DNA from: Geobacteraceae bacterium
GTDB taxonomy: Bacteria > Desulfobacterota > Desulfuromonadia > Geobacterales > Pseudopelobacteraceae
Assembly (NCBI GenBank): GCA_021286935.1
Contig: JAJTBI010000008.1
Coordinates: 1 to 64,000 of the forward strand
Reading direction: 5' to 3'
Length of the DNA: 64,000 bases
Shown here: piece after piece, positions 21,785-23,204 of the stretch
How the letters are laid out: each line of letters starts with the position of its first letter
How positions within the stretch are numbered: the first letter of the stretch is position 1
The notes under the pieces: model-generated
Databases searched by the model: none
Told to the model about the DNA's origin: nothing
Seen by the model: the letters and a program-made list of their open reading frames with translations, nothing else
Made by a program: the position numbers and the translations under genes

Positions 21785-22174
21785 ATGCGCGTAAACAACC
21801 GGTTACTCAGATGGCTGCTGATCATTATTGGCCTAATATCCACGGGACTGGGGATAATCGGCATCTTTGTGCCGCTACTGCCCACCACCCCGTTTCTGCT
21901 GCTGGCAGCAGCCTGCTTTGCCCGCAGCTCAGACCGCTTTCATACCTGGCTGATTGAGCATAATCACCTGGGACCGCTGGTGCGGGGGTATCTGGACGGT
22001 TCCGGTATTCCATTGCGGGCCAAACAGACTGCAATTACATTGGTCTGGCTGACGTTGGGGTCATCCACCCTGTTATTGGTTAAAGCAATCTGGCTACAAG
22101 TAGTCTTGATACTGTTGGCACCTGCAATCACCTGGTATCTGTGGCATTTGCCGGTTCGCAAGGAAACCCAATGA
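21785..22174 (+). CDS. DUF454 (YbaN-like) small inner-membrane protein
   Basis: This 129-residue protein has the DUF454 signature GIIGIFVPLLPTTPFLLLAAACFARSS in its first hydrophobic hairpin and two further membrane segments near the C-terminus. The family's biochemical role is unknown. The ATG at 21785 is preferred over the GTG at 21770, which lies in the accA terminator. The stop overlaps the next gene's ATG (ATGA). Confidence 0.85.
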   Translation: MRVNNRLLRWLLIIIGLISTGLGIIGIFVPLLPTTPFLLLAAACFARSSDRFHTWLIEHNHLGPLVRGYLDGSGIPLRAKQTAITLVWLTLGSSTLLLVKAIWLQVVLILLAPAITWYLWHLPVRKETQ

Positions 22175-22383
22175 AGATGAAATTACTAAAGTTTATCGTA
22201 CTGATCGGCGGTGGCGCACTGGCAGGTGGTATCTTCGGCTGGATGTCAAAATGTGCCGGTGGCGGCACCTGAGCCATGATGAGCAACCCCTGGTCAGGGG
22301 CCTTGTATGGAGCAGCAGCAGGATTCTTTCTAGCCCTGGTACCGGGCGAAACCGACACAAAAAAACCCGAGGACACCCCATGA
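22171..22383 (+). CDS. Candidate selenoprotein: small membrane protein with in-frame TGA (Sec34)
   Basis: The ATG at 22171 overlaps the DUF454 stop. It encodes a hydrophobic glycine-rich helix (LLKFIVLIGGGALAGGIFGW), then KCAGGGT, then TGA at 22270-22272. The same frame continues AMMSNPWSGALYGAAAGFFLALV and ends at TGA 22381-22383, in an ATGA overlap with the next gene. From memory this matches small membrane proteins (DUF6132-like) with the pattern C..GTCPITSNP...LYGA, where the TGA falls on the second Cys. A hairpin at 22287-22300 (CCCCT, loop GGTC, AGGGG) has the loop and distance of the E. coli fdhF SECIS. The alternative is a nonsense mutation, but the intact downstream frame and coupling argue against it. 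Confidence 0.75.
22287..22300 (+). promoter_or_regulatory. Putative bacterial SECIS apical hairpin
   Basis: A 5-bp stem CCCCT/AGGGG closes a GGTC loop. Counting T of the TGA as 1, the loop is at 23-26. In E. coli fdhF the GGUC loop is at 22-25 (recalled). A lower CAA/TTG pairing with a 2-nt bulge extends the stem. Confidence 0.7.
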
Positions 22384-23204
22384 TGGAACGTCTACAAAAA
22401 ATTATTTCCGCTGCTGGTATAACCTCCCGCCGCGCCTCGGAAGAGATGATCCTGGCCGGGCGAGTCACCGTGAACGGTCAGGTGGTGACTGAACTGGGCA
22501 GCAAGGCTGATCCGGCCAAAGACCTGATCGCCCTGGATGGGCAGCCGGTCAAACCGGCCGAGAAACTCTACTACGTACTGCTGCACAAGCCGGCCGGCTA
22601 CGTCACCTCGCTGAAAGACCCACAAGGGCGGCAACTGGTAACCGAGCTGGTGAAGGATATCGGCGAGCGGCTCTTTCCGGTGGGGCGCCTGGACTATAAC
22701 TCTGAAGGACTGCTGCTGTTGACCAATGACGGCGCCTGGGCCAACCGGCTGATGCATCCCCGCCATCAGGTTGATAAGGAGTACCATGTGCGGGTGCGGG
22801 GCAAAATTGATCCGCAGCAGATCAAAAAACTGGCTGATGGGGTAGAGCTGGAGGATGGCCCCACCGGTGCCACCACGGTGCGCCTGCTGAAAAACGACCA
22901 GAGCAATGACTGGCTCTCCGTCACTATCCGCGAAGGGCGCAACCGCCAGGTACGGCGGATGTGCGCAGCAGTGGGGCTGTTTGTGGTACGGTTGCGCCGT
23001 ATCCGCTACGGCAACCTGACCCTGGGAGGCCTGCAACCGGGTGAATACCGTCTTTTGAGCAAGGAAGAGGCACAGGCGCTGGATGCACCGCCACCAATCA
23101 AACAGCGGGAACAGCGAATGGCAGCCCCGGCAAAATCATCTACGACAACTCAGCCACCTGGGCCAACCAAACGGCCACCACGCAGAAAGATCATCGGACA
23201 GTAA
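22380..23204 (+). CDS. rluB: rRNA pseudouridine synthase, RluB/RsuA family
   Basis: This enzyme isomerises a specific rRNA uridine to pseudouridine. An S4 domain (LQKIISAAGITSRRASEEMI) precedes the catalytic domain with GRLDYNSEGLLLLTNDG, where Asp105 is the catalytic residue. A basic Pro-rich C-tail ends the 274-residue protein. It starts in the ATGA overlap with the candidate selenoprotein. The exact target (RluB, RluE, RluF or RsuA type) is assigned only by family resemblance. Confidence 0.9.
   Translation: MMERLQKIISAAGITSRRASEEMILAGRVTVNGQVVTELGSKADPAKDLIALDGQPVKPAEKLYYVLLHKPAGYVTSLKDPQGRQLVTELVKDIGERLFPVGRLDYNSEGLLLLTNDGAWANRLMHPRHQVDKEYHVRVRGKIDPQQIKKLADGVELEDGPTGATTVRLLKNDQSNDWLSVTIREGRNRQVRRMCAAVGLFVVRLRRIRYGNLTLGGLQPGEYRLLSKEEAQALDAPPPIKQREQRMAAPAKSSTTTQPPGPTKRPPRRKIIGQ

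Follow-up and report, generated by a model that had tools for sequence, protein, structure and literature searches.

A candidate selenocysteine form of the DUF6132 membrane protein family in Desulfuromonadia, other Desulfobacterota and Chloroflexota

The SECIS element of Escherichia coli fdhF lies directly after the UGA codon, at a spacing of about 18 nt, and contains a GGUC loop. In our study, a hairpin with the same position and the same loop, whose stem is short (5–8 bp), was found in a small gene of a Geobacteraceae bacterium (contig JAJTBI010000008.1, positions 1 to 64,000; this stretch of 64,000 nucleotides is called the window hereafter). The gene, named Sec-DUF6132 here, encodes a protein of PF19628 (DUF6132). 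The Cys forms of PF19628 (e.g., WP_004920480.1) belong to the same family by the Pfam cut-off and have in common with it the C-x3/4-C/U pair, the following Pro and the glycines of the second helix, whereas in Sec-DUF6132 a Sec would stand in place of the second Cys, the PWSG residues also encode the putative SECIS and the gene neighbours differ. The pneumococcal CcdA-Etrx-MsrAB2 pathway is an envelope thiol relay (PMC3914529). In CcdA/DsbD relays, as in the DUF6132 Cys homologues, a membrane redox-pair protein is encoded beside TlpA/Etrx-type thioredoxins and MsrAB, whereas Sec-DUF6132 has two predicted helices and about 70 residues. The Pfam search gave no CcdA/DsbD homology, only DUF6132 and weak glycine-zipper matches, and CcdA/DsbD is used here as a works-like comparison only. 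Sec is also found in the integral membrane proteins YeeE/YedE, the mercuric transport protein and the SO_0444 efflux transporter (PMC13188914). These catalogued membrane selenoproteins handle sulfur or soft metals, and their families differ from DUF6132.

The Sec-DUF6132 gene (22171–22383, + strand) was found between a DUF454 gene (21785–22174, +; PF04304, 135.5 bits) and a gene encoding an RluB-like pseudouridine synthase (22380–23204, +; PF00849 and PF01479). The frame contained 70 codons (22171–22380) followed by a terminal TGA (22381–22383), with a TGA, very probably read as selenocysteine, at codon 34 (22270–22272, +); the coordinates were rechecked on the window, and the 70-codon frame claimed in an earlier note on this DNA was exact. 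With TGA34 as U, the product would be MKMKLLKFIVLIGGGALAGGIFGWMSKCAGGGTUAMMSNPWSGALYGAAAGFFLALVPGETDTKKPEDTP. The stop of the DUF454 gene overlapped the start of the Sec-DUF6132 gene as ATGA (22171–22174) and the start of the rluB-like gene overlapped its terminal TGA, again as ATGA (22380–22383). Both overlaps, which the same note had claimed, were real and were kept in 10/10 members of the window's genus, one of which contained GTGA at the start. The PF19628 match extended across the TGA, from residue 2 to 57 (35.7 bits vs. a gathering cut-off of 23.2), and the family was matched by all 44 aligned members with an E-value of 0.001 or better. Cys28 (codon 22252–22254, +), the presumed partner of U34, was conserved in all 44 aligned members. 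The spacing proposed earlier for this pair, CxxxxxU, held for most of the window's genus, where five residues lie between the two, whereas nearly all other members contained CxxxxU. The neighbours of the Sec form varied, being DUF454 and rluB in the window's genus, a cation-exchanger-like gene (recognised by eye) in several relatives, an MsrB gene in one Dehalococcoidia MAG and a gene for a CGGC-domain protein in another lineage. No conserved neighbour was found across the Sec clade; the synteny was lineage-specific, and most neighbours had no thiol-redox link.

A class-level search for PF19628 in 277 genomes yielded genuine copies in 44 of them, with a single copy in each. Every copy (44/44) contained exactly one in-frame stop, which was always TGA and always at the same aligned codon. 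The phylum-wide sample added 8 copies from 6 genomes, all with TGA, and the genomes G356 and G385 were found to hold two copies each. To remove ascertainment bias, the TGA codon was left unspecified in a DNA pattern that was scanned against one genome per species (84,980 species). This codon-blind scan gave 30 matches; 22 were DUF6132 genes, with TGA in 22/22, and the other 8 were chance matches with assorted codons at the site. Three Chloroflexota MAGs were among the 22 matches, one MAG having a second copy. In total, TGA was present in 56/56 copies from 53 genomes of the window's class, other Desulfobacterota and Chloroflexota. No Cys, TAA or TAG form at codon 34 was found among these 56 copies in Sec-using groups; TAA or TAG in close relatives had been set as a refutation, and every genuine relative found in these groups contained TGA.

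The weak PF19628 matches L060–L066 and most of the Chloroflexota matches (L115–L118) were judged to be non-homologues. The second DUF6132 copy of a Chloroflexota genome (L114 in G657) kept the TGA and the PWSG motif, and its partner Cys was missing. The protein encoded by L091, a contig filed as Candidatus Cloacimonadota, is almost the same as the one from Geobacter sp. UBA4074 (L103), and the contig is probably a contamination or a misnaming. The genome G006 was identified as Trichlorobacter lovleyi SZ by the 100% identity of an 8-kb part of the second contig to NC_010815.1 of this strain.

Four homologues from outside the Sec-using groups, in Bacteroidota and Clostridia, were found to contain Cys exactly at the U column. 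These were the Riemerella protein WP_004920480.1 (GCSTGTCAITSKP), the proteins encoded by two gut contigs (GCATGTCAVTSSPW and RCPTGACPLTSNP) and the product of an unannotated gene of Pusillibacter faecalis (GCGSGCAIASSP). The first of the Cys homologues were reached with a hand-written consensus query, the matches themselves being database sequences. The Cys type given in the earlier note, GTCPITSNP, was essentially right (GTCAITSKP in Riemerella), and the check that it proposed, for Cys at position 34 of translated homologues, found Cys aligned there in the four. It had also set an unrelated or absent C-terminal half as a refutation; the homologues share the C-terminal half. The Pfam score of a family member changed by −4.8, −4.8 and −6.7 bits when Cys at the U column was replaced by Ser, Ala and Trp, respectively, and in the Pfam profile, which has Cys at this column, the Pro after Cys gained 5.7 bits. 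No Cys homologues were found in the viral contig scans. The two gut contigs, L138 (MT839126.1) and L139 (MT839617.1), are recorded as Bacteriophage sp.; with their genes for MsrAB, TrxR and ferredoxin they seem to be fragments of bacterial chromosomes. On the Pusillibacter faecalis plasmid pMM59_01 (L140:5001–5177), the Cys-type DUF6132 gene was located between the genes of an FAD-dependent disulfide reductase and ccdA.

The putative SECIS hairpin (22287–22300, +; CCCCT-GGTC-AGGGG) contained a 5-bp stem and a GGUC loop (22292–22295) that sits 19 nt after the TGA. The hairpin with the GGTC loop that had been claimed at this place was present, its spacing being 19 nt vs. the about 18 nt of fdhF. 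Its CCC-UGGUCA-GGG core corresponds to the codons of P-W-S-G, which double as the SECIS apex (22288–22299, +), and P40, W41 and G43 were the same in all 44 aligned members. The window has 1,328 TGA triplets on its + strand, and TGA34 alone was followed by a GGTC loop at 17–21 nt with a stem of 4 bp or more; the shuffled expectation for a GGTC-loop hairpin after TGA was about 0.3 per strand. The hairpin after TGA34 exceeds chance. Among 55 copies, the third-base entropy of 4-fold sites was low at the hairpin only, at 0.61 bits for Pro, 0.45 bits for Ser and 0.28 bits for Gly, and it was 1.9 at the Ala codon just past the hairpin and at the next Gly codon. Within the PWSG codons, Ser was encoded by TCA in 47/50 and Gly by GGG in 48/50, and the GG of the loop was invariant across the copies.

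The paired positions of the stem were found to change together. Two paralogue pairs of Sec-DUF6132 were found, L067/L078 in G385 and L068/L077 in G356, and in one paralogue of each pair PWSW replaces PWSG. In the PWSW copies the stem change is compensatory, CCA...TGG replacing CCC...GGG. The stem pair 18-31 varied as C-G, U-G and U-A. The covariation of the stem was higher than in any of the 500 shuffles or any slid register, the kinship of the sequences weakening the shuffle test. The bSECIS model (PMC13188914, Fig. 2A) has a loop of 3–9 nt, a stem of 4–16 bp, a distance of 16–37 nt from the UGA, G in the first two loop positions and an energy of at most −7.5 kcal/mol. The hairpin of the window agrees with this model (loop 4, stem 5, GGUC, 19 nt, −14.2 to −15.0 kcal/mol); when the constraints were taken literally, 51/55 copies passed and 4/55 missed the geometry. 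Its folding energy was no better than that of shuffles (z 0.18, single sequence), and no Rfam match was found in the window at the gathering thresholds.

Selection on the two halves of the gene was compared in eight genus members. The pN/pS was 0.27 for the codons that precede the TGA and 0.30 for those that follow it, vs. 1.0 and 2.9 when the frame was shifted. Purifying selection is thus equal on both sides of TGA34, and the shifted frames are free of it. The genome of the window was found to contain selA (615 bits), selB (360 bits), selD (283 bits) and tRNA-Sec (74.9 bits), so that everything named in the earlier proposal to confirm selA, selB, selC and selD was present. The selD gene lies past the window end (64000), at C25:64175–64873, and is cut by the contig end, its own Sec/Cys site being outside the sequence. 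No in-frame TGA was found in the formate dehydrogenase-like matches of this genome. Among the 44 carriers of the class, tRNA-Sec (E below 1e-8) was found in 36 and selB in 4 more; the remaining 4/44, without selB or tRNA-Sec, were MAGs of 63–85% completeness. This overlap of carriers and machinery is a consistency and not a strong association, because tRNA-Sec occurs in 221/277 genomes of the class in any case.

Bacterial selenoproteins are recognised by a conserved TGA with Cys elsewhere at the same site, by coding conserved on both sides of the TGA and by Sec machinery in the genome, and all three were found here (TGA in 56/56 copies, Cys in four homologues). The reading of TGA34 as Sec, proposed in the earlier note, is strongly supported by several independent comparisons of sequence, none of the refutations set in that note occurred, and Sec-DUF6132 is very probably a selenoprotein. 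If instead the locus were two overlapping small genes, translation would stop at TGA34 and restart at the ATG at 22276 or 22279, and the products would be two peptides of one helix each. The window does contain these two in-frame ATG codons after the TGA, and the ATGA overlaps are coupled restarts used in the operon. In 35/55 copies, however, no ATG, GTG or TTG was found within six codons after the TGA, and on this ground the stop and restart was rejected. Moreover, TAA or TAG never replaces the TGA, the Cys homologues are single uninterrupted proteins and a restart leaves the frozen GGUC hairpin unexplained; we regard two genes as very improbable.

The UGA could also be read through as another residue, by a code change or by leaky read-through, since the frame is open whichever residue enters. 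However, TGA ends genes here, Sec-DUF6132 included, the homologues contain Cys at the column, where Trp costs the Pfam match 6.7 bits, and a SECIS-like hairpin is found together with the Sec machinery, which makes this reading more improbable still. A pseudogene or a sequencing error, with the TGA as an inactivating nonsense mutation, has the lowest probability of all. A decayed copy of the gene does exist (L133:1140–1320 in G250), which is frameshifted and has its TGA deleted, but the identical TGA occurs in 53 genomes and purifying selection acts equally before and after it, and a pseudogene was rejected on selection and distribution. The genome G250 retains tRNA-Sec.

In the selenoprotein reading, UGA34 would be read as Sec by SelB, guided by the GGUC-loop SECIS hairpin inside the conserved PWSG codons. 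The 70-residue product would fold into a hairpin, in which two membrane helices with glycine zippers are joined by a loop that holds C28 and U34. The AlphaFold2 model (alignment A1; pLDDT 61) was a weak model and contained two helices, both of low confidence: the first, hydrophobic and with a glycine zipper, at residues 2–29 (22174–22257, +) and the second at residues 40–56 (22288–22338, +). No related solved structure was found. All 44 aligned members contained G19, G23, G43, G47 and G51, which suggests that the helices are closely packed, and the C28/U34 loop would lie at one membrane face.

The gene contexts of the Cys homologues were examined with regard to function. L138 contained genes for a ferredoxin, a TlpA-like lipoprotein, DUF6132 and an MsrA-MsrB lipoprotein; L139 contained a Trx-TrxR fusion followed by DUF6132; and L140 contained trxA, a rhodanese, a CoADR-like disulfide reductase with a rhodanese domain, DUF6132, ccdA and TlpA. 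In Riemerella (L137), a TonB receptor gene and an HMA metal-binding protein were found directly before DUF6132. Three of the four contexts hold thiol or persulfide redox genes and point to membrane thiol or persulfide electron transfer, for which the MsrB gene beside one Sec form also speaks. C28 and U34 would then most likely cycle between a selenenyl-sulfide bond and the free thiol/selenol. The protein would in this way form the membrane stage of an electron relay, of thiol or persulfide type, to extracytoplasmic thioredoxins and methionine sulfoxide reductases. We infer both this relay function and the topology of Sec-DUF6132; given a selenoprotein, the relay has about an even chance of being right, as judged from four Cys contexts, of which the one with HMA speaks for metals. 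Since ccdA is present in L140, DUF6132 may assist CcdA and not replace it. If the C28/U34 pair of the selenoprotein instead served to bind or hand on a soft metal such as copper or mercury, it would carry no electrons. The position of the Riemerella homologue directly after the HMA protein and TonB receptor genes favours this role, as does the Sec catalogued in the mercuric transport protein and the SO_0444 Cu/Zn transporter (PMC13188914), whereas the other three contexts are of thiol/persulfide redox without metal genes; a metal role is possible but rather unlikely. More speculatively, and with a slightly lower probability than the metal role, the electron-carrying protein may be a minimal membrane thiol/selenol conduit, i.e., a two-helix glycine-zipper hairpin, probably oligomeric, that would bring reducing equivalents to the anaerobe envelope.

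The 2026 catalogue of selenoproteins, which lists 119 families, does not include PF19628 (PMC13188914), and no NCBIfam model, the selenoprotein ones included, matched any of the 44 members; NCBIfam matches to unrelated families at E 0.002–0.07 were regarded as chance. In the literature searched (subscription papers and RefSeq lay outside the search), DUF6132 was not named in a selenoprotein sense. As judged from sequence comparison, Sec-DUF6132 appears to be a previously unreported selenoprotein family, the Sec form of DUF6132. The test set of deep-Sep included Desulfuromonas soudanensis WTL (3,958,620 bp), for which no new selenoprotein gene was reported (PMC12013277). G154, which is apparently this strain, carries the Sec-DUF6132 gene, so that the predictor gave no new gene in a genome apparently carrying it.

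The list of selenoproteins would thus gain a family widespread in Desulfuromonadia, other Desulfobacterota and Chloroflexota, and with it an example of a SECIS fixed within a conserved protein motif. For the Cys-containing DUF6132 proteins, the finding gives a first functional lead, which may be thiol or persulfide redox at the membrane. If the conduit proposal is true, one C/U pair would do part of the work of CcdA/DsbD. Trichlorobacter lovleyi SZ is a cultured carrier, and Sec-DUF6132 is therefore directly testable.
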